Origin: Marisa cornuarietis
Taxonomy: Eukaryota; Mollusca; Gastropoda; Architaenioglossa; Ampullariidae
Assembly (NCBI GenBank): GCA_004794655.1
Contig: SMMW01000047.1
Span: 620,001-684,000 of the forward strand
Reading direction: 5' to 3'
DNA length: 64,000 nucleotides
In this document: one piece after another, positions 7,131-40,392 of the stretch
Layout: each line of letters starts with the position of its first letter
How positions within the stretch are numbered: the first letter of the stretch is position 1
Position numbers and translations under genes: made by a program
Notes under the pieces: generated by a model
The model's input: only the letters and a program-made list of their open reading frames with translations
Databases searched by the model: none
Told to the model about the DNA's origin: nothing

Positions 7131-7132
<2 letters not shown>

Positions 7133-7191
<59 letters not shown>

Positions 7192-7193
7192 AC
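7133..7193. repeat. (CA)n microsatellite
   Basis: About 60 bp of nearly uninterrupted CA dinucleotides, about 460 bp upstream of the first recognised ROCO exon. Confidence 0.95.
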
Positions 7194-7653: not shown

Positions 7654-9865
7654 GTGGATGACTTTATAAAGTTGACAACAAAACAGGCATTGGTTTTACC
7701 TCTTCGCTGGACACCCACTCAGAAGCCTCCCATAGAGGAAGATAGCGTTGACAGGAAATCCTCTGACAGCAAGTTCTCTGAGATGGTGTTCATTCATATT
7801 AAAGATGTACCAATTACTCATCCAGCCTTGGTATGTTATTTTTCCTGGCTGTGAATTCTTTATAACGCCTATACACTTCTAGAATAATTATTCATTTGAA
7901 ATATTTTTGACTTATTAGAATACACATTTATTTATTTTTAAAAATATGGACAGTGTCTTGTGCTTTGCATGCACAAGCAGATAAATGTTCCTTTCAGCTA
8001 ACCTTATGATTGTGTGGTTGTATGCAATGCACTCTTCTCTTTAGGAATCAAGGTGATTTACTGTATGATTAGTCTATTCATTTTGGTGCAGTAGTTGTTT
8101 GAGCTGGTGGCAAAAAACCTCCTTTGTCCACCCAGTAGCAGATGGATACTTGTTTTTTCAGGAAAGATGATGGAAGGTCTTGCCTTCTATGTGCCATGCT
8201 TTGGCTTGGGTGAATCACTTCTATATGATGGCTATAGGCTTTGTGGCCTTTATCTGTCACCTTTACTGATGAAAGTCAGGATCGAGTAGTTTATACTGCA
8301 AGCATTTTGACATTTCTAATATTAGAAGTCAATAGATATTTTAAAAGTATCTTTCTATTTCCTTAAGTCATTATTAAACAGTATGTATGAAGCTGTGGCC
8401 TTTGTCATGCGCACTGCATTAGATACAGAACACTTAAGTTTTGTGCTCTTCTTTGTTGAAGGATCAACTATGGCCAGAAAAAGTTCCACCCAACACCCAT
8501 CATGCCAGCTTGTTCTACACCATCTTTCCTGGTCTACCACCATCTGTCCTTATAAGTGTCTTCAGGTCTGGACACCTGTAACACATCAATATTATATAGC
8601 TTGTGCTGATTACAAATGTATTGCAATAGGTACATTAGCCAGTACTGGAGTCTTCCATGCTCTCAAGAGTACACTTCTAGCCAGTTCAGTAGACAGTGCT
8701 ACATAGAAGTTCACACACACATATATATATACATTTGTGTCTTTAATTTAGGCATATTGTGAAAGTGATCAATCCCATGCTTGTGTGGAGGACAGGACTC
8801 CTACTTCGACAAGGACATGTTGATGTTCTCGTCCAGCTTTGTTACACAAATCTAGAGCATCAGGAAAGTAAGCCTTTGATATTTATTTCTTGCCAATAAA
8901 TATATAAACCCTTAGCTTGGATTTCTTTTAAAATGACAGTGATGACAATAACAATGCTTGTAGTGTTTTTGTATTTTTTTCTTACTATAACAGAGGATGA
9001 GAAATGCATGCTATCGACTTTTAGCAAAGAAGCAATTAAAGATCTGTATAATAGAAAGATAGAAATAATTATGGAATGATCATAAACAATGCTTTTAGAC
9101 AATTAACAAAGCAGACATAAATTACTAGATTTTGATAGCCACCTGGACTGGTTTATAAGGTCCTCTCATGAGAAATAACAGCAGCAATGGTAACATTTTT
9201 AAGCTGATCAGCAGAAACAAAGCTGGAAAAGATGTATTTTTTCTATGTCTGAGCACAATAACATTTAGCTGAGAATTTTTACTATCTCAGCAGCACTCAG
9301 TCAAGAGTCTTCCACATCCAGGCTGCAAGGCTCCCCTGTGCTTGTAATCAGTGGAAGGCTGCCCATGTTACCTTCAGAGATGCCGGAGCCAACAGCTAGA
9401 CTAAACAACAACAAGTGTTTGTGGGGAGCTTTGCAGACAGTCTCTGTGATCACTGACTATGTTTTCCGCAAACACAACATTGCCACACATGTTAGTCTTT
9501 TTTTTACTTTTTTAATACAAAGTGTGTGTGTGTGTGTGTGTGTGTGCGCATGGATGTATGCATATGGACATGCACATGAAGTAGTGCTATTTTTTACCCA
9601 ACCTAAATTACAGCTACACTGGAATAAAAACCATTATAATTGCTAAATAAAGAAGAAAAATGTGTGATCAGGGAAATGCAGTTTCTTTTCTTTATTCAGG
9701 TCACCATACCCTGTGATCAGTGCTGTGAAGGCAACCTTAAACTGGCTTTGAAAAGGGAATCAGTTTTTCATTTTGTCTACTATGCCACATTTTCTGCTGA
9801 TGAAAGGGGCTCAATGTGTAAGATTCACAAAGTCAAGCTCAACATTGAAGAGAAATGTGGGCCTC
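7654..9865 (+). CDS. ROCO gene, orphan COR-B-like module (module 1)
   Basis: Exons 7654-7830, 8462-8565, 8752-8867, 9291-9490 and 9700-9865 join in phase (0-0, 2-1, 1-2, 0-0). The product repeats the pattern of the complete COR further downstream: an FIKL...LVLPL start matching LRLT...LTFPL, then [13 protein letters not shown] matching [21 protein letters not shown] matching [12 protein letters not shown], and VTIPCDQC matching YLIPCPEC. It therefore looks like the C-terminal half of a first Roc-COR unit whose Roc and COR-A are missing from the window. The exon at 7654 has an AG acceptor and no ATG, so it is an internal exon. Confidence 0.75.
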
Positions 9866-12800
9866 GTATGTATTCTCTGTCATTTCATCCATATTTTTTA
9901 ACCTAGAGATGCATATTTTGAGGGTTTTTTCTAAACTTGGCATGTTGAGACATTATTAGTGTCATAGTATGCCTTGAAAATTTAAGAAAATTGCATGAAG
10001 TCTGCTATGTTGAGGTTTATTTTATATGCATGGTAAGAGCCTTGTAAAACCATTGAATGTTGAGTCCTTGCAAGAATTAATGATGGTTAGATACAGAATC
10101 TGCAATAGTGATATTCAGAGGCCTTTTCCCAAGCACAGTGCATAACTAGGGAAAACGCTCTTTATCTCAGTGTAGCAGATTCTTTATCTATAGAAGTATA
10201 ACAGTTAATTAGTTTATGTTAATTGTTTTTACAAGTGAACGTTTTGTTTGGTGGTATTTCCTGCTTCAATTAGATCATTTCCTAACATATATGATTTACT
10301 TAGTTTTGTCTTTTCAGAATATCCAAGCATAGTTCCATTCCACAACTATGTCTACCTGCAAGCTGCCAACCAGAGATTTAATCAGCTGAAGACAGATGGT
10401 CATTTTAGCGGTTCAAATACCATCCAAATGTCAGTCCCTTTTCACTTTTCCTAGGAATACAAAACCAGTATTCTGTCACTTTTAGAGTAAATAATCTCTT
10501 TGCCTGTTTTACTTAAGTAGGACAACAGTAATGTTGGAATGAAATATAATCAGATAAACATACATCTATAGCAGATAACAAAAGAACACTTGTTAAAAGA
10601 AACCTCCATTTTATAAGTAAAATATAGATATTACACATTGCCTTTGTGTGCATTCTTCATTAGATTTACCACAACAGTGTTAATGTCAACTGGAAAATGA
10701 AAAAGACTGTGTTTCTATTTTCCTTCCACTGCAGATGCTTTATGTGTTGTGATGGTATGAACCTTCTCTGTCAACACTGTCACATCTGCTCCAGATGCAT
10801 CCAGTACTTAGCAGTGAGTGGTGCTTTCAAGTGTTTATATAAGTAATGCCAGAATTAAAGTAACTTCTTGCCCACCATGAGCTATAACAAGATGTATAAT
10901 CAATAACCATACATGGCTTGTTCACCTCTGATTGCTGAGTCAGGAGTAAGTAATCTTAGTAAAACTGAAAACTTTTAGAAGATAAGGACTTTCTTTACAA
11001 AATTTCTAATTTTATTCACCTTTACTTTGCCATGAGATATGATTGAGATATTTATATTTAAAATCCGGATTTAATTCATTTTATTTCTGCAGAAATATGA
11101 GTCTTTCATCAAGCCTGGGTTTGTTCGCATCAGCTCAGTTATCAAACATGGGGTGCAGTCAGAGCCAATGGCTGACCCTGAAGCTGAAGCCAGTCATATT
11201 CAAACAACTGTTACTGGTCCTCTCCTGAACATGAAGAAAGGTCAATCTGTGACCCTGAGCCAGCCCTTGACACCAGTTTATTTTGATAAAGCCAGTATCA
11301 GCATTCTTCGAGGCTACAACTTCTCTGTTAGAGGGGACTTGTACGTGTGCAATGCTGAGATTTAGAGGAGTGACAGTGTTTAGACCTTCATTTATGTTTT
11401 ATGAAGAATAACGTATCTAATGTAGTAGGATATAAGAAAAATCTTTGTTAAAAACTAATGACAACTTAATTAGTTTCAGCATTTCTTTATTATTAATATA
11501 AAAATTACTCTTTTATACTATATTATTCTTTTGCATTGTACGTTTTCATATTGTACAATAACATTTATTATTTCTGAAAAAATCGCATTCTACAGTTTCT
11601 GGTGTTTGTGATGTTTTATTTTCAGAGTTAAAACCATGCTTATATCATCCTGAAATGTGCAGGATTTTTTTTTCTTCTGTTTATTTATTTTGATCCCTAA
11701 TATATTTCAGACCAAATGGTCAGTTCTTTGAGTTCCAAGGACCTACAGGCACTTTCTTAGACACACAAGGCAATTCAAAGACTCATGCTGACATAAAGTG
11801 CCGTCAGGGCAGTGTCTTGTCTCTTCGCATGCAGTTCTCAGAGGTTCATATATACTTTGTTAATCTTAGTTGAATATGATTGGTCACTTCTTAAAGCGGT
11901 TTCAAGATTTGGTGCAAAATTTTAGAAAAAAAGTGGGTGGGGGAGGAACTGGTGTTTTACACCAAGCCAGGAGCTGAGCCTATATCACAGCAAGTCAGCC
12001 AGCCCTTTAAACAGATGCCACATGCAGAGAAAGAATAGCATGCCTGAGGCGAGAGCTGAACCCAAGACAGCCAACCTTCACTGTATTGGTGACAGGCGTT
12101 AACCGTTGTGCCAATGGACCGCTCTAGAAAAGAGGGGGTTGACACAACTTATGCTGCATCTATATTATTATACTTAGTGTATTGTTCACATTGAAAAGAT
12201 AGTTTTGAAACCTTGATATCAAGGGCAATAACAAGAATTATTTTGGTTTGTCTCAGCTGCCTGGCAAGAGTGATGTTTCATTATACTTGAATGGATTGGA
12301 AATCAACAAAGAGACAGTGGATGGATGGGGAATTCAGTTAACTATCAGCAAAACCATCACTGGCTTAACTGCACTATGTATACCTGGAGTTAAGGTATGT
12401 ATATCTCTGACATGTTTACAGCAGAATGTTTTGCCATATAGCTGTTCTCGTATTTTTGCTGTCTCCCTATGTTTATGTTTTAAATCTTTTCCAATCAGAC
12501 TGTGCTTAGACATTCCACAGAGCTTGTAGCAGATGCTCCTGTGTCATTATTCTGGTATGAAAGCATTATTCAGAGTTCTAAATTCAGTCGCCATCTGATT
12601 TAGTGTCTGATGTTTCAATAAGTGTTTTTTCCCATCACAGAGCTGCTGGCAGCTGGCAGAAAGTTCTCAGTTTTTGCCAGGCAATACCATGGAGATTCTT
12701 CAAAAAGACAGTTCTGTTATCCTACCTGGACTTGTCACTGCAACTGAAAATGGAAGGACACAATTTATAGGTATACAGAGATCACATACACAATTTTCCT

Positions 12801-13597
12801 GTTATAGTCATATGGATAAAGTAAATATAAAAGTAGTTTCCTAATCTTTCAGTTGTTGTGGTTGAAGATGTTAGAGATAACACTTTTCTCGAGGCCAGCT
12901 TTTTGAGAGGGTGATACCAGTCTCCTTTCCCTTGCTGCCTTACCTTTTCCAACCTCCTTCAGGTCCTGCAGGTACCTAGTCAACATCTGGGTCAGCTAGA
13001 AAAAGTTTGCTGCGTCTTACAGGCATCAAATGAGCTAGCATGCACACCTTCATATTCAGGTGCCAGTGCTCTGACTGCTTAGCTGTCCACTTCATGAGAC
13101 ACATGCAAGGATTTCATGAGATATTGCATAGTTTGTAATCATTATCTTGAAGCTAGTTCCGACTCATATATTATTCATGCCAACATCACTCAGGTCAGGT
13201 ATTATGGAGAAGGTATAGGGCTTGTAGCCTTGTGGCCATATAGCCAATGTACTATAAGTTGTCCAGCATGCAAAGCATGCGTGGAAAAGGTGGAACCCAA
13301 CTCTCTTCTCCCACTGCCTCTTACTTCTTTAGTATTTCAAGTACCCATAGCATGAGTGGCCCTATGTGAGCTCAAGTAAATCGATTTCGCAAATGTTTTG
13401 AAGCACTAAAACCCTCACTATGGCACCAACCCCATGTACATCAGTTGTCTTGCTCTTTAAAAGCATCTTCCATTGGAGAAAAGATCAGCTTCAATTCTAA
13501 GAGGATTCGCCCAAGAGGTTATGCAGAACTCAAGCAGAAAGAAATGAGTGGAGATGTTGCAGGTAATCTTTTATGAAAAACTGGCATTCACTGTGTT

Positions 13598-13629
<32 letters not shown>

Positions 13630-16600
13630 TGTGTGCGTGTGTGTGTGTGTGCACATGCGGGCTCATATGTGTGTGTGCATGTGTGTGTGTGTGTGCATGT
13701 GTATGTGTGCATGTGTGTGTGTGTGTGTGTGCACTCATGTATGTGTGTGCATGAGCATATCTATGTGAAGAACAAATTATAAGATTTGGAACAATGCATA
13801 TATTTAAAACCAAAATATAATGGTTAATATGGTTTAATTATGACGTTGTAAGATAGTATTGGAGCACTATCCTATCCACAGATCTCGAAGCTCCACCACA
13901 CATATTTAAAGAACCCCTGCCACTTTGGAAATTTCATGAGGTCTGTGTTTGTATTTCTTTCCTCTTATTTCCTAGTTTATACAAAGAATCCATCAATGAA
14001 AGACCTGTGCATCAGTCTTATATTCTATGAACAAATGATCAATTATTATATGTGTTTTAATTTGTCTGTATTTAAATTTGTCTTTATTTGACAAGACCCA
14101 TCCGTGATATTTTCATATTAGCTTTAGAAAAGAAGCCTCGATGAGTAATGTATCTTTGCATGCTTTGTAAACTTTTGTGTTAAACATTAGTGATAATGTT
14201 TGGTGTAGGCAAGAAAGACTTGCATGTTCATTTTTTGCCATGTATGCCGTATGCAAACAAAAACCTTTTAGCAAATATATTTTCAGCAACAGTTTCTGAA
14301 AAAATTGTTTTAGCAACACTTTCTGGATTGCCTAGAGGAGCTGCTGATGAAGGTCAATGATTTGGATGAACTGATTGCTCCATGCACTGATATCATATCT
14401 CCTGCAGGTACTGATATAGATTTTGCTCATTTAGAACAGTCTTTTAATTGGAATACTTGAGAATTATGATTGATTATTCTGTATTACATTTACCTGTGAT
14501 ATAACCAGTGCCAATTGTAGACAGTCCAAAGAACTTCACAATAAGAAAAGACACTTTAACCAGTTCTCAAGCATTCCAGAAATGTGTCTTGTAAAGTTAC
14601 TATATTTTTTTAAGACATAAAAGTAACCACAAAAGAGGTTTTTTTAAATGTCATTTTGTGAAACTTTTGATTAAGTTTTCAACTTAAAAAATGAGTTTTA
14701 GACTGGTTAAAACCCTGATTTCCCTGCTGAAAATCACTAGAAAGAAGACCATCTCATAGTCTATTTTTTCTGCTTTTCAGTATTGTTTGCAGAGATGGAG
14801 AATAAGAAAGATTTAGTGGAAAAGGCTCTTTTTCAGAATGGGCACGTGGACTTTAATGGTAAACAGTAATTTTAGGAGCATTCTTTCTTCCACTTATGCT
14901 TGGAGTATTTAACAGAAGCTATTGCAGGGTTTCATGTGTTTTGATGGATTGTATATGTGATATATTACTTATATTTATAGTTTATTTCTTGAAAATTGTT
15001 AACTACACAATACATAGGCAACTTGGACTTGGATTGGCTATGTCTTGTCTTGAAAGAGAATTGAAAGAAGATTTCTGTAAACCATGTGTTGAGTAATGTG
15101 GACTACCACTAGGAATATGTGTGAAAAACCATCCACTAAAAAAACAGATATATTTGCAGGAACAGCTATGGTCCTTCTGCCCTCTTACCTGTCAGTAGAA
15201 GACCTGACCTTCATTCCTTTAAATCGTTTAACACATGAGCTCTGTGCACACCCACTTTGCTACGTCCGTGGTGGGTATTTATATATTTTGGCAGCTGTGC
15301 TTTGATCTATGCAAATTACTTTTATTTGAAGGATACTTTTGAGAACAAATTCTAGGAATTCATCACTGTTTGCACAAAGGTGTGTGTGTGTGTGTTAGGA
15401 TTGTGTGTGTGCATGCATGCATTCTCATATCCCTATTAAATGTAGCTGTGCTAGTAGCAGAGCAGAAATGTTAAAAATCTGATGAAATTTTCTTCTCCAG
15501 GTGACATCAACAGTGTGATGTCTGTGCAGCCTACCTACAACCTACCATCACAGGTGGAGTGTTTTCGCATAGTGCATTTGCTCAACAATCCAGGATTTCC
15601 ATTTTCCATTGAATCAGAAACTTCCTTCCGTCCACTGATCTGGGCATGGGCATTGATGTTGCTACACCTCCAGAAGGTTAGTGTGTCAGTAGCTGGAGTT
15701 GTTTTTTACTGATCTCATGTCAAGAATGAAGTTCTCATTTTTCTGTTAAATGTGAACGCTTAATTCTGGCATGTTCTTATGAAGTTTACTCTTTGTTTTA
15801 TGTGTACACTTTAATTCTTATCTTAATTTTTACCTCATGTTTTCTGTATACCTGTTTAGGAGTTTCAGATGCTTGTTTCAGGCTTTATTTAGAATGGTTT
15901 TCTTGCACAGTGACAGAAAGTTCTGAAGTGTGGCAGTCAGAGACACTTCATTTAGTTTAACAGAGCAAGTCATAGATTGTTGGATGGATTCATACTCGGC
16001 TGCAGTCATTTTTATATCTGCATGTTTAATCAGTTTCCACCATTTTAATATGTTCATGCTAATTTCAACCATTTTCAGGAAGGTCTGAAAAATTATGACC
16101 ATCTGTTGGAGAATTTTTCTAAAATGGAGATTTCACCCCATGATCAGGTAAAGAGTCTGTGAAGTTCTCTGTCTGTACTCACTGGTTGCTGTGTAATTTT
16201 TCAAAGGCATTGGTGAACATGTAAGAAGTGGTGTTCAAATCTTGTGACATTAGCAGTGGCTATACATGAGTTCTAGAGACATTCTTTACATCTGTCTATA
16301 AAAAAGTGCATAAATTTAGTAAATATAGCATACAGTTTTTTTTTAGAGAAAGGGTCATACACAGATAATCAGCTCATGGTATTGTGTGCTGCAGATCTGG
16401 AAGGGACTGCGTCAGGTGATCACAATGCTGGCTTTCCTGCTTTACCTTTCTTTCAAAGATCAGCTGTCCCCGTATTATTTTCAGGAGTATGACACTGTCA
16501 AAGAACATGCAGCAGTAAGCACATGGCTAATTGTGTGTGTTAATGTGTACACTAGTTTGCATATTATATATATATATATGTGACAGAGAGAGGGGGAGAG

Positions 16601-28600: not shown

Positions 28601-31600
28601 ACTATGTTTAAAATACAATGGTACCTTGGCATTCAAACTGCTTTGTGCTCGAACATTTCATGTATTTACATATGTAAACCATACAGTCATCACGGCCTCC
28701 AAACTTTCTAGTGAAGGAGAGAGGAAAACAGTAAGAATCAACTATTGAATTGAAAAAATAACTTATTGCCAAATGTGAGAGTGGCATATGTGCGTTTGTG
28801 TGTTTGTTCGCTGAGGAGCGATTGGTCACGCCGCATGCATCGTGTGTCTGCGTGGTAGAAAGTGTGTACGAGAGTGTGGAAGGTGTGGCGCTCGATCGCA
28901 AAATGCGACAACAAGCTAGTTAACTGTTGGTGAATGCTGTAACCAATTATTTACATTGTTTCTTATAGGGGGAAAAGGTACTTGCCACTTGATCTGATTG
29001 GTGCTCAACTAGCCTTCCAGAATGGATTATGGTTGAGTGCCAAGGTACCATTGTACATAAAAAATAGTTTCAATGTCTTTTGAAGGTCCGTCTGCATGAA
29101 TTTAGTGATGGATCACTGATCTGGAAACGAGGATCATACCTGCACAAAAATGGACATCTGTGCCTTGTCAGACAGAACAGGTATATGGCCTCAGTATGCA
29201 TTCAGTCACATTGTGTAATGACAGTTTCACAATTCGCTATGTTATTCCTTATAAAACATTTGTGCTCTCTTCTGAATTTTGAATTTTTTTCCTTTTGGTC
29301 TGTATCTATTGAACACATTAAATATAATCTGTCAACAGGGATTCAGAGTTGCTGGTTCAAGCACAGGGACCACGACCAGACAACATTTTGTTTCTTGTGC
29401 ATGAAGTATTTGAGGGGCTTATTCTCGAGTCTTTTCAAGGAGTCACATATGACTACCTTATACCTTGTCCTGAGTGTCTGAGACTAGTGAGTATAGAGAC
29501 AAAGTGAGAGAAAAATTAATGCTATAGAACAATTTATAGACATGTAGAGAGGGCCGGTAGGCCAGTGCTAGTTGTTAGTTTTGGGACTTCACACAATAGG
29601 TTACAAACAAATTTCAGTTTTAGTCAAATTCATAAACATACACTAGTATCTTATATGCAAGTATAATGGCATGTTTTAATGGATGTACCAACTTTCTTAC
29701 TACAGTTGCAATATGAATCAATCCTAAATTGTTATTAAATGTGTATGTAGCCCAAATCCTGCAGTGGAACAGTCAAAAGTACAGAAAAAGTCAGCAGTTG
29801 ATTTCTTCTAAACACTACTCTTTTTATCAGATGCTGAAAGATCCACATATGTTTCCTGCCTCCATTGTGCGGCGTGCTGTAGAGCTAAAGGCACCTTTCC
29901 TTCAGTGTCTTAAATACTTTCACACCATCTCCATTGTAGATCTACAGGGTAAAATGTCAGCTTTTCTCTGCTCTATCATGCTGTGCTCTGTATGAGCCTA
30001 TGTTTGTATGTGTGGATGTATGTTAGTGTGAGAGCTTGCGTGTTTTGTGTATTTTGACAACTACTAGTGCACAGCACTTAATCACATAGTCTAAAAATTG
30101 TAAACTCTTTCGCACACAAAAAGACAATGATTATCTGCTGGTGCAAATGCCTGTTTTACTGTTTCTGTCCTCAAATTCAAACGAGCAATTCACTTGTTAA
30201 AAATCACAGTAATTCATACATTTCCTCAGACAACAGCTCTTACTTATACCTTCACTCATTCTCATAAAGACATCTAATATCCACCTGCTACACTGTTATT
30301 AAGAGAACTCTGAATTCCATTGTCACAAAACTTGGTAATAATAATTTATAAGTAAGTGCCATCGTATGCTAGTGCACTTGCAATCCTTAGTGAAGAAGAA
30401 TTCACAAGCAAGTTGCCTCTAATTTTCAGCCTCCATGCCTCCTGACAGCAGCACAGACTTTGACATGCACCTTGTACAGGCTGTACGAGGACTGAAAGAA
30501 CTGCATCATGACTTGGCAGCCGGTGAGAATAGCCACACATTTAGATGTTTAGTGAGCTTTACCTTCCTATCCATTTAAAGACAACAAAATATGGTTGACT
30601 GAGTGTAACAATGTTTTCAGAAACTCGGGTGTAGTGAGAAATATTTTTTTCTGTGGAGAAAAAGAATGTTGTGTCTATTGTTTTATGGCTATTCTCATTG
30701 GAGGAACTAAGTTTAACTCTGTCTTCAAACCTGTCCATATCATCATCATCATTACATCCATCCCTTTGTTCATCCTTCTTTCCTTCCTCTCTTTATCTGT
30801 CTATCCACCTTTGATCCACTATCCCTTCCTCTTTCCATTCATCAGTCATCCATTGGTTGTCCATCTTCCTCTCTCAATCATCCACAAACCTTATCACTCA
30901 TCATCATTCATTCATTATCACCAATTAAACAATTGAGATGGAAATGGTGAAATAGGTTCTATGCAATGGTTTAGTAAAATGCTGAAAATCTTGCATCTAA
31001 GAACTCTATTCCAGATATATTTGTATCTTTCTGCAACAAAGATGAAGTGGGGGATAAACTAGGAATTATATCACCATCGAAAGTAATCAGTGAGATGATG
31101 AAAATGGGCTACAAAAGGTAGGAGCTATTTGAATGAACTTTATGGCATTAAATATTCTAGTGAGCAACCCTTGGATAACACATAAAGTGGATGCCAAGAA
31201 ACTAAACGGTTATTTTTTATTAATGTCTGGATACAATAAGTCTTCACTGTTGTCAATAGGTTCTTGAAAATTGCAGCTTTTAGGAAAATGATAAAATGTA
31301 TAACCAAACCAGTTTTACCATGGGCTAATTGATAGAAACAAGTGTTCAATAAAACCATAAGCACTTCTTATGTTCTGCCTGCTCAAAAAAGCATGAAGAC
31401 ATGGGAAGTGCAAACTTCATACAGACAGTGGCCTCTGATGGGAATCAAATTTTTGTTATTGTTATGAACATTATAACAAAATATAATAAGTAAGGATTTA
31501 TTGCAGTGGCGTAGGAACAGGAGGGGCAAGGGGGGCAGCCGCCCCCCCCCAAAAAAAAAGATGCTGGGAAGGCAAGAATGTGAACGTTATTCATTGTCAG

Positions 31601-34600
31601 CATGGAGCTTGTCCCCCCAAAGCCGAGCATCTTCCTACGCCACTGTATTGTACTGCTGTCTCTCATGGTACTGTACTGTGTGCAGTCTACATGAGTTTTC
31701 CAAACATGAAATAGCATATATTTGACATTTTAAGAGTTTCTAGCTGGTAAAAATAAGTGCAAAGTTTATTCTGTGTAGCTGGGCTGCTGACAAAAACGTT
31801 TCGATGGATGAAATGGTGAAGGCTTTGATGGATGCTAGGTTGTTTGTGGTATTCATGACAAATGCATATGTCAGTGATGAGGAGTGCTGCAATCTCTTCA
31901 AGTATGCTCGCCTCACCTTGCACAAGCCATTGCTGCTGATTACTATAGGCACTGGCTTTGAGTGGCAACAAGGGAGACTTGGCATTCTTCTGGCAGATGA
32001 GGTAGTCATATGGTTGAACCAGTTTATTTTTTATTTTTTATATTTTCTATATTGTCCATTTTTGCTCTTGCTTTTGTTTTGAATTTGCACTTTCAGAACA
32101 TAGCTATTTTAGTGTTATACATGTTGCTCGGTAGACTTGAAGAACACAGCTGTTTTTGTTGTTATACATATTGCTCTGAAGACTTTTACAATATAGCTGT
32201 TATGGTGTTATACAGGTTTTTCAGTAGTTTTTCAGTTGATTTGGGGATTGAAAAGAAATCAGAACAGTCAAATGGCAGATCATAACTTGAAAGAGTTGAA
32301 AGTAATTATCATAAAGAGAAAGGGAAACTTTGAAGATATTTGTAGCTCAGGATACTGATGTTACTGTAGAGCAGCCTCATTGCAAATCCAAAACACTTAC
32401 ACTGATTCTGGAGTCTTCATTGCTTGATGCGCAACCTGATGAAATTGTTTTCTTTCCCAGGTTTATGTGAACATGCAACAAGCAGATAGATATGAGGTTA
32501 AACTTAAAGAACTGAAAGAAAGACTGAATGATCGAATCATGCAGAAAGTGGCCAGAGAAGAAAAGGAATTTCCCCCTTGCTTCATCAGTTACTGCTGGCA
32601 AAATTCTGCCAGAGCAGTTGCTAGAGGCTCGAGGTGTGTAAGAGATCTCATGATAGTGAGGCCTGTATATACTTCTCTGAAGACATAAAACAAAAACCCT
32701 TGATATTAACTGGTGTATCTCAGAATATGTTGGCCTGTATCTCATAAATATGAATGGGAGTTAAGATGGTGAATTCAGGGATGTTGGATAAGTAGTTTAG
32801 CTGCTCACCCACCGCAAGCTTAGCATAATTAGCTCTTGATAAATACCCTAGAATAGAATGCATTTGCCTAGCCTGCTGTTGTTTAAAAAAGTCACAATAC
32901 ACATTACTCTTCTACAGATTTACAGAAGGAGCCATTGGCCATGGTGATCCACGAGACATTAAAGACTTTCTGGAGAGCAAAGGCATCGCTTGCTGGATTG
33001 ATGTGGAACGCGTTGGTGTAGTATGTTGAAAATATTGCTATGGTTTGCTTATTTCAAAATAAAAGGGGGAGGCTGTTGTGGGTTTTGCTGTGTAGACGCA
33101 TATATAGATGGTCCAATGTGTACAGTCATTTTAATTATGCATACATGGAGACACACACACACACACACACACATATAGCAGTATAAATTTTTATGTGTGG
33201 ATATATATATATATCTAATTTATATATCAATTTTTGAAGCATTTTGTTTCTTTTGTTTGTAGACAGATATTTATGTTTCTCTTTTAGCATGGTCTATTTG
33301 AGGACATTGGAGCAGGTCTGGTCAAAGCCAGGGTTGTGGTAGCCTGTATATCAGATCAGTATGCAACTTCAAATAACTGCATGGTTGAATTTCGTTATGC
33401 TGCCAACACTCTGAAGCTACCAGTTATATTGGCTACTGTTGGGACCGGCAGCAGATGGAGAGCTACTGAGGTATGAAAAATATTAAGGGTGCAGTTTGGC
33501 TTATAAAGCAGATGGATTGATGTACTGGGTAGATTTTGTTTTCCTCAGCATTACTAAAGCTAGTATAGTAAAACCTCTTTCCTGATAACAACCCCCTCTT
33601 AGTACAACCTAACAATTTTTTATGGACATATTTCTGAACATCATCTGAACATCATCTCTATAACAACTATACCTACCCAACCCAACATTTTAAAATAGAC
33701 TATGCTAGGTCGCTCAATTTAATTACGGACTTTCGACTTTTATCCGTAACATCGGGGGGCATCGTCCAAGATCTGCATCGTTAATCTCTTCTGCTACAGA
33801 GAAGCGGCGGCAGTCAAGACAAGGTGAAGCTGTAAGGAGTCAATAAAGGAGCTAGTAAAGCTAGGCAAAGAGTTGGGTCTCGAAGGAGAAGAATTAAGAG
33901 AGTTTGTGAAAGAAAAAGAGAAGAGGGAGAGAGAAGAAAGAGCTGCAGAGCGAGAATTAAAGAAGCTATAATTAGAGAATGAAGAAAAGCAACGTGCGCA
34001 TGAGTTGGAAATGGCACGATTAAGACCGGCATCCAACAACTCGGAGATTCATGTGAAGTACGAAAGGCCAAAACTGCCAAAGTTTATTGATGGAAAAGAC
34101 AGTGTGGACAGTTATTTGCAACGTTTTGAGCGCCATGCTGAGTTGTCCAGTTGGCCGTGAGCTGAGTGGGCAGTGTCACTGAGTGCACTGTTATAATAAT
34201 AATAATGCGAACTTATAATGTGCAGAATCACGAATAAGATAGATCGCACTCTCTGCGCAGTACAATTTGATAGAAAGAAACATAACAACCAATAGACAGT
34301 GAGGTACACATAGGGACACTGAACAACATAAAGATGAGGTACAAGTCAGGAATAGTACTTTGTAAAAAGATATGTTTTAAGAGAGCGTCTGAATGCAGCC
34401 TTGGAGGCTGAGTGGCGAATGTGATGTGGTAGAGAGTTCCACTGCTGAGCAGCACAAAGGGAGAACATCCGTTGTCCGTATGTGACTGTCTTTGTGAGAG
34501 GGAGGAATAAAATGCGGGAGTCTGATGAGGAGCGAAGGGTTCGGGCAGGAGTTTTGACAGACAAGATTTCATTAAAGTAGCTGGGGGAGTGACCTTATCA

Positions 34601-37600
34601 GGGCATGTGCTTGATATCTACTCCCGCATGCCAGCAGAAGCAGATCAAGACTATGATGAGCTGAAGCAAGCACTATACTGAGTGGGTATGACTTCACTGA
34701 AAACGGATTCAGATCGAGTTAGCAGGGCAGGGGAAGAACTTTGAAGGTCTTTTATATATTGTACTGAAAGAGCAGTTTGTCGAAGCCTGCCCAAAGACCT
34801 GGCTGTCTTCTTGCAGCAGCAGGAAGATCAAAGTTTGAGAGCACTGTCAAATGCTGGGACAAGATATTTACAATCTCAAGGGAGAGGTTTTGTTTCTGGA
34901 TCGAGGGATCCGTCACCTGTGGCTCCACCACCATCACCCCCTGTCCACGAGAGAAGGAATAAAGACCAGCAGTGCTTCTCGTGCGGAGGGAGAGGTCACA
35001 AGGCAGTGGTGTGTCCAAGTGGGCTGAATAAGCAACGGTCCAGCCGTAAATGGTTTGAAGACAGCGGTGACCAGCAGTATGCTCGCCGAGCAGTGACTTC
35101 GGCAAACGTTGTGTTGATTGAGAGCAGGCAGAATGTGATGAATGGCAATGGAAGAGAGAACCGCGCAGGATCTGCAAGTCAAGAACTGCGGTGGTGGAAT
35201 GTGCTCTGGCAGTTGTGGCGGGCGCCAAAGCAGGTGGCATCAGAACTACGGTCGGTAGAATCGGCCACAAAACAGTGTCAGTGCTGAGAGACACTGGCTG
35301 TAGTGGTGATGTCATCAGGAGGAGCCTCGTATCACAAGGGCAGTACACTGGGCGAGTATCAAGTCTACGATGTTGCCACGGCCACACCCAGCAGGTGCCA
35401 GATGCAGAGGTCGAGGTGTCGACGCCATATTTCAGAGGGCGGGTGACGGCAGTGTGTGTAGACGACCCGCCGTACGACCTGATCATTGGCAACATTCCGG
35501 GAGCAAGAGACATTGGTGTCCCTTACCCGCAGATGCCAGAGAAAATGGTGTCAAGGCCATCGAGAGGATGGGAGGGTCAGACTACCAGTGTGGTCATCTT
35601 GTTTCGTACAAAGTCGTTGGTTTTATGTTCTTTGTATGAGATCCGGAGCAGACTCCTCAGGCACTTATTCTCAAATGCTTGGATTCCCCTTTCCGTTTCG
35701 GCGAGCAGAGTCTATGTGTCGCATCCGTAGAGCAGGATCGGCACTACCGGGGATTTGTTCAGCTTACTTGATAGTGAACCTTATCTTGTGGCTATGCCAG
35801 ATCCTATCTAGCCTAGCCATTGCTGCCGTTGCTGTTGCATCCTGATGTGGATATCTGATGTGGAGCTGCTCACATTAGTTCAGCCAACATTTAACCAAAC
35901 AAAAAAATGGCTGCTTGGCAATACACATTCAAAGAAAAAAAATCACACAATGGAGCATAACATGATTTTCTTTTAAATCATTTTTTAAAAAACCTTTGTT
36001 GTCATTGTTCTTTAGGTTGGAGACTCTAATTAAATGTATATGCAGGCATCCATTTAATATCCTTGGGTATTCGTTTAGCCTGGACCCAGTCAATTCAATT
36101 TTCGATTTGGGGGGATGTTACTGTATGTAGCATGTATGGACATGGTGGGGTCAATTCGACTTGAATGGGTCAATATATAGCCGAAGCAATATAGGTTTTG
36201 GTTGAAATGACCAGCCCCCAGTTCATTGTTGTCTCTTTACCAGCATGCATTAGTTAATTGTACTTCATTAATCATCTTTTGCAGAAGTCACTTGTCTATA
36301 AATTAAAATTATAATGACTGTTTGTGCTTTATTGAGATTTTTCAGAAATCATTCAAAAGTGCATTTTAAGAGAATGTCTTTGTCTGCCACAGCACACATG
36401 CTGATTTATTAGAGAGCATAATCTGCTATAAGTCTTCAGTCAAACCTAACAATGGCAGAATAAGCATGACTAAGCGACCACAACCCAAAACAACAAAAAG
36501 CATTATGATATAGTTTATAAGAGCACTATTTCAGCATTTCAATAATGAACTTGAGTTTATAGGTGTTTGAAATCATGGTTTGTGGAATAAAAGCAGACTA
36601 GCTGATCTCCCTACAATGACCCCTCTCAGTTACCACCCAGCTGTGTTGGATTTTAGTGTCTTATTAGGGAGGTTTTACTGTATTGCTATACATTTAATCT
36701 ATCTCAACAATTTAATGATTTATGCAGAAATACTTAATTTAGATTCATTTCAGCAAGAACTATGATTCATTGTCTATTTTTCTGTCTGGCATGTGTTTGC
36801 ACAAACATGCAGGTAGGCACACTGTCCCAAAATTATCCAATGGTCAGCTTTCAAGAACAGCAAAGTCAGGCAGCCTTTGAACGCCTAGCTAACATGATTC
36901 AACCATACCTTGCCACTCCATGTATTGAGCATGAAAAAGTGAAGGTGGCCAAAGCCAGCCATGACCCCAAGTCCCTTTCCTTTCAGGTCAGTGTCACCAT
37001 TTCATGGGTGTCTCCTTAAAGCATTTTGATAAATGATGCATTTACTTGATGATAAGTGCAACATTTGCTTAGTGTGTGAGTGAGAGAAATAGCTAGAGAA
37101 CATCTACATCACATTTACAGTGGGGAACCCCATACTGCTAATAACTTTAAATAATCCAACTTATTTCAGTCATTAAAAAGTAGAATTGCTTCAGCAAGAG
37201 AGAATAATGTAAACACAACCCAACTGCATGCCTTGTTTCTTTGTGTACAATATATGTAAATGTACTTTAATCTTCAAGGAGCTGTGTGAGCTTGTACAGC
37301 GTAAATTCCTACGCCAGCTTGCAGTGTATGCAGAGATCCAAGATAGTATTATATATCCCAGGCTTTTCCTCATTGATTTTGCTACAACTTCTATGGACTC
37401 TGGTGAGATTCCATTATTTTTATGTCTTAGCTATTTCTTTAAATAAAACTGACTGTAGTGGAGGATATTTTCTTTGTCCTACAGATGACATGACTATATG
37501 GAGATCACCTTCTAGCTACCTCAAATCCAGGTATCCAAACTCGTGCAAACGGGTAGGATCTCAGTTCAGCTCAGCCCCCTCCCATCCCACCTGTCACACT

Positions 37601-40392
37601 AGTGAGCCTCTCTACTCCAGAGAGGTTGGCCTCGCTCAGGAAGGGAGGCCTGTGTTCGTTCTTACCAGTGAGAAATGGAAATAATGATATCCCAGCACAA
37701 TCTTTTGTGGCCTGGGCCTAGTAGTCATTTAGGCGGCTTATGCAGGGCTCTCCAACAGTGACTTCTCTAGTTTGGGCCGAGCATTTGAGGCTCAAGCTGT
37801 GGCCACTAGTCCAGCCGTCTGGAAATGTAGCTAAAAAAAATTAGTTTTGCTATAGACTGGCGTTATTGTGCGACATTCACTAGGTTCTACCTGTGAAATC
37901 TTGCAGCCCATTTTGACTCATTGGTTGCAGTCAGTTGGGTATCAGCATCTCAGCTGGGAGAAGATACTGCAGCCTGTTCAGCAGGTCAGTAGGCAGCTTC
38001 ACATTGTTCCAGTCAAGGCAGTCTCAGTCTCCAGCCCGGGTGGATTTTAGGTGTGTCTTTTTGTTTGTTGTTTCACATAGGGTGACAGGAAATGTTGTTA
38101 CAGCATGGGCTGCCACTCCCTCTGCCTGTTAGTCATTCTCCATATAGTCATGTCATCTGGTACAGTCAAAGAATAAATAGCATTTTTGGTGGTAAAATTT
38201 CTTTCTTCAAGTACTTACCAGATGACATAACAGCTAGCTCCCTCCTGCCTCCCTGCAGTGGGTTCCAGACTCAGTCCAGGCGAAAAACTGGAGTAGAGAG
38301 GCTCACTAGTGTGACAGGTGGTATGGGAAGGGGCTGAGCAGAGTTCAGGTCCTACCGTGTTGCATAAGTTTGGACAGCTGGATTTGAGGTAGCTAGAGGG
38401 TGATTTCTGTATAGTCATGTCATCTGGTAAGTACTCGAAGAAAGAAACTTTACTACCAAAAATGGTATTTTTTTGTCTTTGTTACAAAATGCAGCATCTT
38501 ATTACAAAATGCTGATTTTAAAAAAGTTCAAAAAATGCTGTTTTATCTTTCATAATACTTTGTTGACAATGTAAAGCTCCAATATCAAGTGGAGAGGTGA
38601 CAAAAGGCAGGGAAGGTAATCAGACACAGACAGAGGATGCTTCCAAGATGGATTTCCGTGAGAAGAGTTACTGTGCACATATTTTATGCGAACAGGAGGA
38701 GGTAAGTTGTAAGAGAGGGCTGTATAAAATACTCCATACTTGCCTTTCTCCATTACAAAAAGAGGATATTTTTAGATAGCAGTAACCAAATATTTATATA
38801 ATGTTCTGTCCCAAACCAGGCTCAAAGCACTTTACATACATACAACACAATGTAGAGCACATGCATAGGAAAAATATCATTATTAGATAACAATGTTTTT
38901 TTTGAACATCGCAGGGTTGGCATATCTCAGGAGACCCTATACCTTTGCCACCTCATTTTGGAACCACATTAGAAAAATATGCTCCCTTCATGGCCAGAAT
39001 CACAGCCATTGCCAAATACAGCAAGAAAATGGTCATGAATTGCATGGGAACCGAATTGGGCAAGCAATTTCTTCAGTGGCTAGAAAAGGCAAGCCTTGTA
39101 ACATGGAATTAAACTTGTTGTATCTATTGTGTTTAGATGCTATGGACTTTTCCCTTACTGCATTTAAAACAAGCACAAGTGGACAAGATGACTGCGCTAC
39201 CTGAATACATTGTGAATGAAGGGTATGAGTTTGGTGTCACTATTATTTGTGAGTATTTATTTCTACTCTTCTCACTTTGCTGCTGCTGCTGCAGCGTAAG
39301 ATAGACATTATTTTTTTAAAAAGTCATAGTCTTTTGACACCTTTGCAGAATCCTCAGATTGCAGAGAATTCTGATTTCCAAGACAGTTACCATGCACTAC
39401 GCCAGATTATTGCGGAAGCAGACCAGTCTAGTGCTATGGGAAATATGGCCAGGTATGAAATGTCTGTATATGTTTGCAAAGTTATCTGTCAGTGCTTGTA
39501 AAAATATATGAATAAGTATTCAAAGGTGTTTGTGTATATTCTTATTTATAGGTTACCAATAATTTGATCTGCTTCTGTATGTGTATATATGTTTATAGAT
39601 ATATGTATGTATCCATCCAACAATAACATGTTGACATAGACATCATGTAAGCTACTAGCATTTTTTTGCCTCCCTTTTCAGATGTCATCTTCCAAATGGC
39701 CGTGTGGTATGGTTATGTGAAAAGCACAGGAAGAATGCAAGAGTAACAGTGCTAAGTGAGGCAGACACCATTACTAGCTCACTTCATACTACAGAGTCTG
39801 TTTCTGTGGACTACATGATTCAAGCCCTCCGGGAAATGACCACCACAGACTTGTCAAAACATGAGCCCCACAATGAATTCTTTACAGGTCAGAGAAGGGT
39901 TGATAAAAACTCCTTGATTATTTATTTAGTATTCATCTTGATTATTAATAATTTAGTATTCATGTATTCCCCTCCTGACTAGACTGACTTGCCTTCCTTG
40001 TGAGTAAGCATCACTCATGATTCAGTATGGCCATATTTCTGACTGTAAATTTTTATCATTAATAATATTATCATCAATATTAATCTAAGATAGTTTTTAT
40101 ATGAATTTATCACATATGTTTGTAGTGTAAGATGTTTTAAATTTTTGCCTTTGCAGGAAAGCCTTCAAAGCTGCTACATACTAAGCAAGAAATTGCAACA
40201 TTTGTAGCATCACCATCTCCACTGTCTCCCTCAAGCACAATCAGAGATAAATCTTCTACAGAACCACAGGCATCCACATCATCACAGTCACTTCAGGTGC
40301 AGGAGACTGTGGGACTTTCAGGATCTCTGTATCGTCAGCCCTCACAACTCACCTTCTCTGGAGTGAAGAGCAGAGCATGTATTTTGATGTAG
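7654..40392 (+). CDS. ROCO-family protein: COR-B / LRR / EF-hand / LRR / Roc / COR / TIR / TIR (5'-incomplete, ~50 exons)
   Basis: Exons joined in consistent phase give about 2370 residues ending in a stop at 40390-40392; the start lies outside what I can see. In partial numbering the order is: COR-B-like half-module (1-254), Cys-rich linker (255-814), leucine-rich repeats (815-1008), EF-hand (1009-1052), more LRRs (1053-1117), Roc GTPase (1117-1343), COR (1344-1609), linker, TIR-1 (1680-1788), TIR-2 (about 1825-1960) and tail. ROCO proteins use the Roc-COR unit as a GTP-dependent dimer switch; TIR domains assemble signalling complexes or cleave NAD. The protein has no recognisable membrane segment and is probably cytosolic. 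Exon coordinates are given in the sub-entries. Two introns appear to use GC donors (after 17545 and 39088). No vertebrate orthologue is recognised; MFHAS1 and LRRK are only family relatives. Uncertain parts are the 5' end and the 37.4-39.3 kb exons. Confidence 0.85.
10318..16848 (+). CDS. ROCO gene, linker exons with Cys-rich element
   Basis: Exons 10318-10429, 10735-10813, 11093-11340, 11711-11843, 12257-12394, 12641-12770, 13464-13562, 13882-13940, 14314-14407, 14781-14858, 15501-15676, 16079-16147, 16395-16514 and 16705-16848 are in phase throughout. Exon 10735-10813 encodes CFMCC, then [10 protein letters not shown]: seven cysteines spaced like a zinc-binding knuckle. The remainder (about 480 residues) has alternating hydrophobic strands (11.1-12.8 kb) followed by helical, Leu-rich sequence just ahead of the LRRs. 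I recognise no named domain here. Confidence 0.75.
10735..10813 (+). CDS. ROCO gene, Cys-rich exon (possible zinc knuckle)
   Basis: This 79-bp exon is bounded by a CTGCAG acceptor and a GTGAGT donor. Its 26 residues include seven Cys and two His in the arrangement CxxCC, then CxxCxxCxxC. This could chelate one or two zinc ions. RING-type fingers are a possible relative, but the spacing does not fully match one. Confidence 0.6.
11930..12130 (-). repeat. tRNA-derived SINE
   Basis: On the minus strand the element starts near 12125 with a tRNA-like head: a box A (TGGCACAACGG) and, about 45 bp on, a box B (GGTTCAGCTCT), matching RNA polymerase III internal promoters. The body continues to a GGTGTAAAACACCAG palindrome near 11945-11960. 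The element sits in an intron of the ROCO gene. From memory, a similar core occurs in SINEs shared across molluscs; that identification needs a library match. Confidence 0.65.
13600..13752. repeat. Compound (GT)n/(GA)n microsatellite
   Basis: About 150 bp of GT repeats interrupted by a short GA run and GCAT/GCAC variants, starting some 40 bp after the donor of the exon ending at 13562. The apparent ORFs on both strands here are repeat artefacts. Confidence 0.9.
17252..17974 (+). CDS. ROCO gene, leucine-rich repeats, first block
   Basis: Two exons (17252-17545 and 17687-17974) encode about six repeats of the LxxLxLSxNxLxxLPxxIxxL type, for example '[15 protein letters not shown]' and '[15 protein letters not shown]'. 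LRRs form a curved binding scaffold, here N-terminal to Roc as in other ROCO proteins. The junction requires a GC donor: the exon ends CTAAG and the intron begins GCAAGT, and only that choice keeps the frame. Confidence 0.9.
18290..18422 (+). CDS. ROCO gene, single EF-hand exon
   Basis: The exon (phase 0 in, phase 1 out) encodes FQLF followed by [12 protein letters not shown] and IGKL. The 12-residue loop has Asp at 1 and 3, Asn at 5, Gly at 6, a hydrophobic residue at 8 and Glu at 12, the canonical calcium-binding EF-hand pattern, flanked by hydrophobic helices. It sits between two LRR blocks and gives the protein a plausible calcium input. Confidence 0.85.
18530..18600 (-). repeat. LINE 3'-end fragment
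   Basis: ATAATAAATGAAG followed by TTTTTATAGCGCATATTC and TTTTAGCGCTTA. The same core is found at 53222-53290, where it is a clean insertion, so this is a fragment of the same minus-strand LINE 3' terminus. Confidence 0.6.
19057..19449 (+). pseudogene. LINE reverse-transcriptase fragment, family A
   Basis: Encodes the catalytic neighbourhood FADDI and the following [13 protein letters not shown] and [11 protein letters not shown] blocks, with a frameshift near 19335. It stops abruptly after RIWHSHKI at about 19449, where a second copy of the family begins. Both 5' and 3' ends of this fragment are missing. Confidence 0.8.
19450..21425 (+). mobile_element. LINE family A, copy with endonuclease and an internal deletion
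   Basis: After a GC-rich leader (19450-19740) comes an APE-type endonuclease: [31 protein letters not shown] and MGDMNVKVG (19740-20309). One in-frame stop near 20309 interrupts it. The ORF resumes at 20313 with [10 protein letters not shown] and [12 protein letters not shown] and runs to the pre-RT region ([15 protein letters not shown], about 21290). There the sequence jumps directly to the element's 3' terminus ([11 protein letters not shown]), which matches the ends of copies at 22.7 and 51.9 kb. Essentially all of RT is therefore deleted. The 3' end carries a short CTGA-type tail. It lies in the ROCO intron between the EF-hand exon and the second LRR exon. Confidence 0.85.
21632..22180 (+). 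CDS. ROCO gene, second LRR block and Roc P-loop
   Basis: Exons 21632-21826 and 22015-22180. The first encodes further repeats ([30 protein letters not shown]). The second closes the LRR domain and starts Roc with [13 protein letters not shown], a canonical Walker A (G1) motif whose final Ser codon is completed by the next exon. The intron falls inside G1. Confidence 0.9.
22690..24640 (-). mobile_element. LINE family A, minus-strand copy, 5'-truncated and decayed
   Basis: Minus-strand sequence reads from a pre-RT part (24.36-24.12 kb, [18 protein letters not shown]) through RT (23745-22993: [21 protein letters not shown] in place of FADDx[17 protein letters not shown]) to the C-terminal tail and ends at 22692 in a tandem TCAG/CTGA tail on the plus strand. 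Several frameshifts are present and the catalytic Asp pair is lost. It occupies the Roc intron between G1 and the next exon. Confidence 0.8.
24884..26357 (+). CDS. ROCO gene, Roc GTPase core
   Basis: Exons 24884-24951, 25187-25287, 25551-25697, 25992-26081 and 26251-26357, all in phase. Motifs in order are SLVKALMSD after the P-loop, WDFAGQ (G3, the ROCO form of DxxGQ), VVGTHVDQV (G4, THxD in place of NKxD, common in Roc), then the [14 protein letters not shown] segment at the G5 position. Together with 22015-22180 this is a complete, apparently intact nucleotide-binding domain of about 225 residues. Confidence 0.92.
26407..26487. repeat. 54-bp tandem duplication, second copy interrupted
   Basis: Copy 1 is 26407-26460. 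Copy 2 begins at 26461, is broken at 26487 by an LTR-element insertion and resumes at 27190. The intact copy shows the sequence before insertion. Confidence 0.85.
26488..27185 (-). mobile_element. LTR retrotransposon remnant, 698 bp, with 4-bp TATA target duplication
   Basis: Flanked by TATA (26484-26487 and 27186-27189). On the minus strand it begins TGTAGAGGGCCGG and ends TTGGCTACA, i.e. TG...CA LTR ends. A complete LTR (26906-26488, about 419 bp) is preceded by a purine-rich tract, GAGAAAGAGACGGCGGGGA (26907-26925), typical of the 3' LTR primer site. The 5' LTR survives only as its first ~52 bp (27185-27134, 'TGTAGAGGGCCGGTATGCC'). The LTR holds a TATATAAGGG box (26704-26715, minus). No coding sequence remains. 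A related LTR start occurs at 29554. Confidence 0.75.
27278..29486 (+). CDS. ROCO gene, COR domain
   Basis: Exons 27278-27356, 27635-27781, 27827-28054, 28310-28408, 29086-29180 and 29339-29486. COR-A contains the winged-helix-like [13 protein letters not shown] and [15 protein letters not shown] segments. COR-B contains [29 protein letters not shown] and, at the end, [15 protein letters not shown]. Length (about 265 residues) and order are normal for a Roc-COR tandem. The last Cys pair is shared with module 1. Confidence 0.9.
28616..29053. mobile_element. Mariner-type MITE, 438 bp, TA target site
   Basis: Flanked by TA at 28614-28615 and 29054-29055. The ends are inverted: CAATGGTACCTTGGCATTCAA on the left and CAATGGTACCTTGGCACTCAA in reverse complement on the right (20 of 21 identical). 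No transposase ORF. It lies in the COR intron, ending 32 bp before the exon at 29086. Confidence 0.8.
29554..29600 (+). repeat. LTR-end fragment
   Basis: TGTAGAGAGGGCCGGTAGGCC followed by a CTAGTTGTTAGTTTTGGG stretch. It matches the first ~45 bp of the LTR at 26906-26488 but lies in the opposite orientation; the remainder is absent. Confidence 0.6.
29831..30522 (+). CDS. ROCO gene, linker between COR and TIR-1
   Basis: Exons 29831-29948 and 30430-30522, in phase (0-1 and 1-1). They encode about 70 helical residues ([33 protein letters not shown]) without a recognised domain. Confidence 0.8.
31015..32001 (+). CDS. ROCO gene, TIR domain 1
   Basis: Exons 31015-31117 and 31779-32001. The start [11 protein letters not shown] is a TIR box-1 (strand A). 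[19 protein letters not shown] and [18 protein letters not shown] follow, corresponding to strand D, the DD loop and strand E. Where NAD-cleaving TIRs have a conserved Glu (C-x-x-E-F), this domain reads C-C-N-L-F, so it is probably non-catalytic. Confidence 0.8.
31504..31645. mobile_element. Inverted-repeat MITE, 142 bp
   Basis: Ends are perfect 14-bp inverted repeats, CAGTGGCGTAGGAA and its complement. A TATTG repeat flanks both sides (31499-31503 and 31646-31650). The interior has G-rich and poly-C/poly-A runs. It is inserted in the intron between the two TIR-1 exons. The superfamily is unclear: the end motif resembles hAT, but a 5-bp rather than 8-bp duplication does not. Confidence 0.7.
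32461..33470 (+). CDS. ROCO gene, TIR domain 2
   Basis: Exons 32461-32633, 32918-33020 and 33288-33470. After a coiled, charged linker ([16 protein letters not shown]) comes CFISYCWQN (box 1), [15 protein letters not shown] (box 2 region), [16 protein letters not shown] and then [10 protein letters not shown], which keeps the Glu used by NAD-hydrolysing TIRs. The block [11 protein letters not shown] parallels [10 protein letters not shown] of TIR-1, showing that the two arose by internal duplication. Confidence 0.85.
33735..35585 (+). pseudogene. Gypsy-like LTR element, gag and protease remnant (broken)
   Basis: After a GGGGGGCATCGTCC sequence of the kind found near LTR primer sites comes a charged gag start ([16 protein letters not shown]) with internal stops. 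The gag is interrupted at about 34192-34590 by another LINE and resumes with [23 protein letters not shown] zinc knuckle ([14 protein letters not shown], about 34975-35020) and an aspartic-protease motif (VLRDTGCSG, about 35281-35307) follow. Frameshifts lie between them. The RT/integrase part and LTRs are absent. Not a functional gene. Confidence 0.8.
34192..34590 (-). repeat. LINE 3' fragment nested in the gag remnant
   Basis: Minus-strand ORF ending [14 protein letters not shown] and [11 protein letters not shown], a common non-LTR retrotransposon C-terminus. Its 3' tail is the TTATAATAATAATAATG run at 34192. It splits the gag frame between LSALL and SGHVLDIYS. Confidence 0.75.
35586..35870 (-). 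repeat. LINE family A fragment
   Basis: Reverse complement of the segment at about 51500-51700 (LLYGCNTWTVLAKTERRIQ and [11 protein letters not shown]). It is joined directly to the protease remnant and truncated at both ends. Confidence 0.75.
36813..37402 (+). CDS. ROCO gene, end of TIR-2 and following helical segment
   Basis: Exons 36813-36986 (phase 0-0) and 37279-37402 (phase 0-1). The first, starting [14 protein letters not shown], matches the end of TIR-1 ([15 protein letters not shown]). The second encodes [18 protein letters not shown] and FLIDF, of unknown fold. Confidence 0.85.
37482..37640 (+). repeat. Partial inverted copy of the fold-back MITE
   Basis: Matches the reverse complement of about 38270-38425 (shared TCTAGCTACCTCAAATCCAG and CACCTGTCACACTAGTGAGC). 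It begins right after a CCTACAG that mimics a splice acceptor. Confidence 0.65.
37904..40392 (+). CDS. ROCO gene, C-terminal exons and stop
   Basis: Exons 37904-37981 (optional, phase 1-1, 78 bp), 38577-38701, 38915-39088, 39137-39211 (limits uncertain), 39349-39452, 39682-39887 and 40157-40392. The protein has [13 protein letters not shown] and a helical [17 protein letters not shown] segment, then [16 protein letters not shown], a Cys/His pair that might bind metal, and ends in a Ser/Pro/Thr-rich tail. After 39088 a GC donor (AAAAG, then GCAAGC) is likely. The weakest join is 39211 to 39349, where only a poor GTGAAT donor keeps the frame. Confidence 0.7.
38180..38465. mobile_element. Fold-back MITE, 286 bp, TA target site
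   Basis: TA flanks at 38178-38179 and 38466-38467. The terminal inverted repeats are about 50 bp with few mismatches: both arms carry (C)CATTTTTGGT(G/A)GTAAA, TTTCTTTCTTC and CTTACCAGATGACAT. A partial copy of its interior lies inverted at about 37482-37640. Confidence 0.75.

Follow-up and report, generated by a model that had tools for sequence, protein, structure and literature searches.

A gene of the TIR-ROCO kind with two TIR domains in the gastropod Marisa cornuarietis

ROCO proteins have been studied mostly through LRRK2, whose output is a kinase, and SARM1 offers an example of a TIR domain tied to a regulatory platform within one chain. Closer relatives of the gene described here have been reported from other animals. 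In Aplysia, LOC101845043 (with an EF-hand) and LOC101848126 (with an MBT repeat) each combine LRR, ROC, COR and TIR domains, fall in one clade and were classed by the authors as putative Toll-like receptors; the same account suggests a 'GTPase TLR signalling cascade' for Aplysia and also describes MyD88-like proteins and TIR proteins that carry a ROCO or COR domain (PMC9334734, accessible text). In sea anemones, Novel Gene 1 (NG1) encodes LRR, Miro/Ras/Roc, low-threshold COR and TIR_2 domains in all anemone species examined, and combinations of TIR_2 with GTPase domains are noted for oyster (with C2), Trichoplax (with MBT) and bacteria (PMC5094078, accessible text). According to the accessible text of a ROCO review in which the word TIR is absent (PMC6337361), dimerisation of bacterial Roc-COR relies mainly on the latter half of COR, and ROCO proteins are believed to alternate between monomeric and dimeric forms with their nucleotide state. 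The accessible parts of two articles on bacterial conflict systems (PMC7159879, PMC8195603) contain no animal TIR-ROCO case.

Here we analyze a 64,000-nucleotide stretch of the 534-Mb Marisa cornuarietis genome, called the window (C330:620001-684000, where C330 is our handle for the contig). All positions are those of the window unless a contig or locus is named. Inspection of stop-to-stop frames on the plus strand between 17 and 40 kb reveals short exon-like stretches with LRR, EF-hand, Roc, COR and TIR motifs. These were assembled with an exon-chaining script written for this analysis, giving the following features.

7654-7830, 8462-8565, 8752-8867, 9378-9490 and 9700-9856, plus strand: N-terminal candidate exons, termed 'COR-B-like' in the first-pass annotation (splice sites, open chain).
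10735-10754, 11093-11240, 14781-14858, 15501-15676 and 16079-16147, plus strand: further N-terminal candidate exons (gene-finder chain only).
17252-17545 and 17687-17974, plus strand: first LRR block (Pfam LRR_8, LRR_4 and LRR_14; LRR in both paralogs).
18290-18422, plus strand: exon with a 13-residue EF-hand loop (Pfam EF-hand_1 below cut-off; loop pattern).
21632-21826 and 22015-22180, plus strand: second LRR block and start of Roc with the P-loop GLGGAGKTS (Pfam, paralog matches and chain; donor at 22180 weak).
24884-24951, 25187-25287 (WDFAGQ), 25551-25697 (GTHVDQ) and 25992-26081, plus strand: rest of Roc (Pfam Roc, 1.1e-20).
26233-26357, 27278-27356, 27635-27781 and 27890-28054, plus strand: COR-A (Pfam COR-A, 9.3e-31).
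28310-28408, 29086-29180, 29339-29486 and 29765-29948, plus strand: COR-B and following segment (Pfam COR-B, 1.6e-24; chain).
31015-31117 and 31779-32001, plus strand: TIR1, read as degenerate (Pfam TIR_2 below cut-off; Leu at the Glu position).
32461-32633, 32918-33020, 33288-33470 and 36813-36986, plus strand: TIR2 (Pfam TIR_2 above cut-off; Glu kept in three of three loci).
37279-37402, 37884-37984, 38915-39088, 39349-39452, 39682-39887 and 40157-40392 (TAG stop), plus strand: C-terminal tail (chain; partly conserved in both paralogs).

When guided by hints from homologous exons, the script produced a chain of 41 exons running from 7654 to a TAG stop at 40390-40392, which encodes 1914 residues and is free of internal stops. 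Because the hints steer the chain, its exact borders are not independent evidence, and several N-terminal exons as well as exon 32236-32301 are doubtful. An open multi-exon chain had been proposed in the first-pass annotation and is retained here, with 41 exons in place of the 'about 50' joined there. Without hints, the interval 17000-40600 scored 102.9 on the plus strand (32 exons), 0 on the minus strand and 0 to 11.7 in ten dinucleotide shuffles, in a run that was unmasked for repeats, such that transposon frames can contribute, and that took its codon weights from the guided model and is thus not fully independent. A repeat-masked, self-trained and hint-free chain, run without a shuffled control, comprised 29 exons from 7783 to 42430 and scored 109.0.

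Several repeat-like features lie in and around this chain. Frames resembling endonuclease and reverse transcriptase by eye occupy 18762-21422, within the intron that separates the EF-hand exon from the second LRR block, with parts repeated elsewhere in the window. Gag- and zinc-knuckle-like frames, likewise identified by eye, lie at 33760-35880 in the intron that splits TIR2; the end of this stretch recurs at 23006-23280 and 51511-51712. Downstream of the gene, a 116-bp tandem repeat is present in three copies at 42815-43160.

Pfam was run on the joined exons (1337 residues, some exons left out). Beyond the Roc and COR matches listed above, it returned LRR_14 (4e-19), LRR_8 (3.1e-18) and two stretches of TIR_2 (7.1e-15). 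Pfam and the exon chain together confirm the order given in the first-pass annotation from the first LRR block onward, such that the core at 17252-40392 is predicted to encode LRR / EF-hand loop / LRR / Roc / COR-A / COR-B / TIR1 / TIR2 / tail. Roc is followed directly by COR-A and COR-B, which places the product among the ROCO proteins, and its G1, G3 and G4 motifs are all present (GLGGAGKTS, WDFAGQ and GTHVDQ); GTP binding is predicted from these motifs. The same Pfam search gave no kinase match and listed no ARM or SAM family for the joined protein. Hydropathy, a crude test on an unproven exon model, gave best 19-residue means of 1.47 for the core and 1.50 for the longer model, values that are low for a membrane span such as a Toll-like receptor has between its LRR and TIR; the large encoded protein is apparently soluble.

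A phmmer search of PDB with 1070 residues returned LRR proteins, LRRK2 and bacterial ROCO structures among the best 60 of 495 matches, where LRRK2 was the top relative after the LRR proteins (E 2.7e-46 over residues 255-702). The LRR-Roc-COR module is thus common to LRRK2, bacterial ROCO proteins and the window gene. In contrast to LRRK2, the joined protein has no kinase match and carries TIRs in the output position. As in SARM1, a TIR sits on a regulatory platform in one chain, here without the ARM or SAM families in the Pfam results. NCBIfam matches to bacterial effector LRR families fell far below their cut-offs; they reflect LRR similarity and are uninformative on function.

We next consider how the locus compares with its relatives in the same genome. 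A genome search with TIR2 and the sequence following it gave 23 matches, distributed as 6 in the window, 2 each on C505, C449 and C480, and 11 on C427, the strongest outside the window being those on C505 and C449. The 11 matches on C427 lie within ~117 kb (C427:9100790-9217221, loci L022-L024), perhaps a tandem TIR gene array, and one C480 locus (L021, C480:1934644) pairs a TIR exon with a stretch that resembles a death domain by eye and is possibly MyD88-like. For C505 and C449, 60 kb around each match was compared with the window, with paralog exons picked by the analyst. Both loci match exon by exon in the same order of LRR, Roc, COR, TIRs and tail, and Pfam finds LRR, Roc, COR-A, COR-B and TIR_2 in both. 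At E <= 0.05, 19 of 22 window exons match at least one paralog, the exceptions being those at 17252, 36813 and 39682. Amino-acid identity to the window is 0.56 for each paralog, and exon 25551-25697 is identical to C505 at 39 of 49 residues. Differences at codon positions 1/2/3 are 0.36/0.28/0.58 for C505 (708 codons) and 0.38/0.24/0.62 for C449 (695 codons), in stretches chosen by protein match, a choice that favors the third-position pattern.

ROCO genes seem numerous and partly tandem in this genome. A search for Roc, in which 150 of its 217 candidates were scored, gave at least 99 matches; the Roc of the window gene, which introns split, is missing from these 99, so Roc counts are lower bounds. 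Among the matches listed, clusters occur at C265:2167908-2180299, C393:2433090-2449959 and C529:42247-46428.

Since the window and both paralogs each combine LRR, Roc, COR and TIR_2 in a single gene model, the gene belongs to the TIR-ROCO kind known from Aplysia and sea anemones, whose named genes are compared here by description only. The earlier suggestion that this architecture is undescribed among animal proteins is refuted for the core by the accessible accounts of Aplysia (PMC9334734) and of sea anemone NG1 (PMC5094078). LOC101845043 is described with the same domain set as the window gene, EF-hand included; the second TIR and second LRR block of the window gene are not named for it in the accessible text (PMC9334734). 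LOC101848126 resembles C505 in that both have an MBT repeat, which Pfam does not find in window positions 7500-17200. The EF-hand and MBT pair in Aplysia mirrors the window gene and C505, which makes orthology likely by description, and LOC101845043 is probably the orthologue of the window gene, as judged from its described domains. NG1 shares LRR, Roc, COR and TIR_2 in one gene, and differs in that one TIR_2 is named, its LRRs are of the F-box/LRR type and an EF-hand is not named in the accessible account (PMC5094078), as opposed to the two TIRs and the EF-hand loop of the window gene.

The two TIR domains differ from one another. The first-pass annotation had proposed both from the letters alone, and a profile search bears out TIR2, which on its own matches TIR_2 above the Pfam cut-off (2e-10, 41.7 bits versus 28). 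TIR1 alone remains below it (E 0.00047, 21.1 bits versus 28), as does C505 TIR1 (24.8 bits versus 28), and C449 TIR1 has no Pfam match; that is to say, TIR2 passes the cut-off in three of three loci, whereas TIR1 is matched in two of three and never above it. C449 TIR1 was located mainly by position, and its tblastn match (E 0.063) is to TIR2. An alignment of the six TIRs was scored at what we take to be the glutamate found in many TIRs, the one that matters for TIR NADase. TIR2 has E at this position in all three loci, while TIR1 has L, L and M. We take TIR1 to be degenerate and assign the putative output to TIR2. Loss of the glutamate in TIR1 together with its retention in TIR2 in three loci may be a fresh element, as judged from a limited literature search.

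Calcium sensing was also proposed at first. A 13-residue segment of exon 18290-18422 matches the PROSITE EF-hand loop pattern, and so does C505, but not C449. By chance, such a match arose in 10 of 2000 shuffled cores and, when the exon product was shuffled 5000 times, once. The pattern in two of three loci thus weakly favors calcium sensing. Against it, EF-hand_1 is below the Pfam cut-off in the joined exons (E 0.0046, 16.9 bits versus 25.4), and neither C505 nor C449 has a listed EF-hand family at E <= 0.1.

The region upstream of 17 kb is more difficult to interpret. Its reading as a COR-B-like N-terminus, and hence of the protein as having one and a half COR modules, did not survive. Pfam finds no family in the joined N-terminal exons, nor at E <= 0.5 in three frames of 7500-17200; a PDB search with the N-terminal stretch returns nothing at E <= 10; and hhalign of this stretch against the core scores like shuffled sequence. 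In pairwise alignments, the score was reached by 108 of 500 (local) and 12 of 500 (end-to-end) shuffles for the window, and by 39 and 95 of 500, respectively, for the C505 counterpart. The N-terminal COR-B match of C505 (E 0.098, 12.9 bits versus a cut-off of 27) is not significant. A COR-B assembled from colinear weak blastp pieces was dropped when controls did not bear it out.

Other observations suggest that the gene continues leftward. Position 7654 is a splice acceptor with no ATG, so the gene probably begins further upstream and the interval first annotated probably lacks the gene start. Exon 8752-8867 with the end of the preceding exon matches a C505 stretch upstream of the LRR at a score reached by none of 500 shuffles, and the C505 piece matching window position 8747 scores 60 versus a maximum of 50 in 20 shuffles. 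Between this counterpart and its LRR, C505 carries an MBT repeat (1.7e-19, Pfam on hand-joined pieces). Some 40 kb upstream of 7654, C330:587997-588122 matches an LRR exon of C505 (17860-18046 of the joined stretch), scoring 78 versus a maximum of 50 in 20 shuffles. These two were the only ones of 21 C505 pieces to beat all 20 shuffles in C330, and none of 21 did so in C449. Three hand-joined upstream pieces gave LRR matches below cut-off (best 0.0001; F-box LRR family 0.00048), and the C505 piece of this comparison gave LRR_6 only (0.039). A frame-by-frame Pfam scan of L009 positions 4000-10000 found no family at E <= 0.5, and tblastn of the core against C330:580001-620000 found nothing better than E 5. 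Taken together, conservation of 8752-8867, the C505 MBT repeat and the upstream LRR counterpart indicate that the gene probably extends past 7654, with an N-terminus of no assigned domain; the upstream LRR as part of this gene is a lead only. An uninterrupted 502-residue frame on the minus strand at 3334-4842 contains both neurotransmitter-gated ion channel domains (Pfam 3.1e-31 and 7.1e-15), and a minus-strand piece at L011 8790-8864 resembles an ion-channel N-terminus by eye. If the gene extends upstream, this channel gene would lie inside one of its introns; alternatively, the upstream LRR would belong to another gene.

Our favored explanation, held with somewhat better than even confidence, is a many-exon gene for a large TIR-ROCO protein in which a GTP-switched Roc-COR dimer would control the output of TIR2, with TIR1 as its partner. 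Both the domain content and the matching order in two paralogs support the proposed coupling of a GTP switch to a TIR output within a single chain. A ligand or partner would be recognised by the LRRs, GTP would switch the Roc-COR dimer between states, as it does in LRRK2 and in ROCO proteins of bacteria, and the spacing of the TIR2 domains in a dimer would shift as a result. TIR2 would then provide the output, either by cleaving NAD or by seeding TIR assembly; TIR1, having lost the usual glutamate, would be a structural or inhibitory partner (a brake), and calcium is a possible modifier. We infer an immune, cell-death or NADase output.

A serious competitor, given a little under an even chance, is that the TIRs are pure adaptors, with TIR2 recruiting MyD88-like or other TIR proteins and cleaving no NAD, in line with the GTPase TLR cascade suggested for Aplysia and its MyD88-like proteins with ROCO domains (PMC9334734, accessible text). 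TIR2 fits TIR_2 better than the Pfam family TIR and keeps the glutamate; both are weak arguments for an enzyme. The same glutamate is also present in non-enzymatic TIRs. Searching PDB with TIR2 gave four matches, headed by the CRISPR-associated TIR Cat1 (E 0.03), which is barely ahead of the unrelated ones that begin at E 0.045 (a nanobody); SARM1 is not among the four. The N-terminal exons raise a separate question. About a one-in-three prospect, in our judgement, is that 7654-16147 forms a unit of its own or a decayed one, the TIR-ROCO gene starting near 17 kb at the LRRs. These exons have no Pfam family and depend on the gene-finder, their 13 own-genome matches at E <= 0.1 all lie within the window (11 candidates scored), and 7654 lacks an ATG, but the shuffle-tested C505 counterpart of 8752-8867 lies upstream of an LRR. 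Moreover, the C505 MBT placement and the Aplysia ROCO-TIR with MBT (PMC9334734, accessible text) suggest that the sister gene, at least, has a long N-terminus.

At the other extreme, we consider it improbable that the gene starts tens of kb upstream as a two-headed sensor, where the working LRR-Roc-COR would follow an LRR of the F-box type and the decayed remains of a ROCO-like module, and GTP would release TIR2 from an enzyme-dead TIR1, a same-chain pseudo-TIR brake on an NAD-cleaving effector. Far less probable still is a pseudogene broken by transposable elements. Repeats do occur in several introns and splice sites at 22180 (donor), 25551 and 25697 are weak, but the 31 of 41 hint-guided exons from 17252 onward join without a stop, the Roc motifs are intact, and third-position bias combined with the absence of stops argues against decay.

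The favored TIR-ROCO reading, drawn from sequence comparison, carries several consequences. With a natural ROCO protein whose output is a TIR, one could test directly how the GTP state of the Roc-COR dimer is passed on to an effector, and such a protein would connect ROCO GTPases with TIR immunity in animals. That TIR1 has lost the glutamate while TIR2 has kept it would provide a simple testable prediction.
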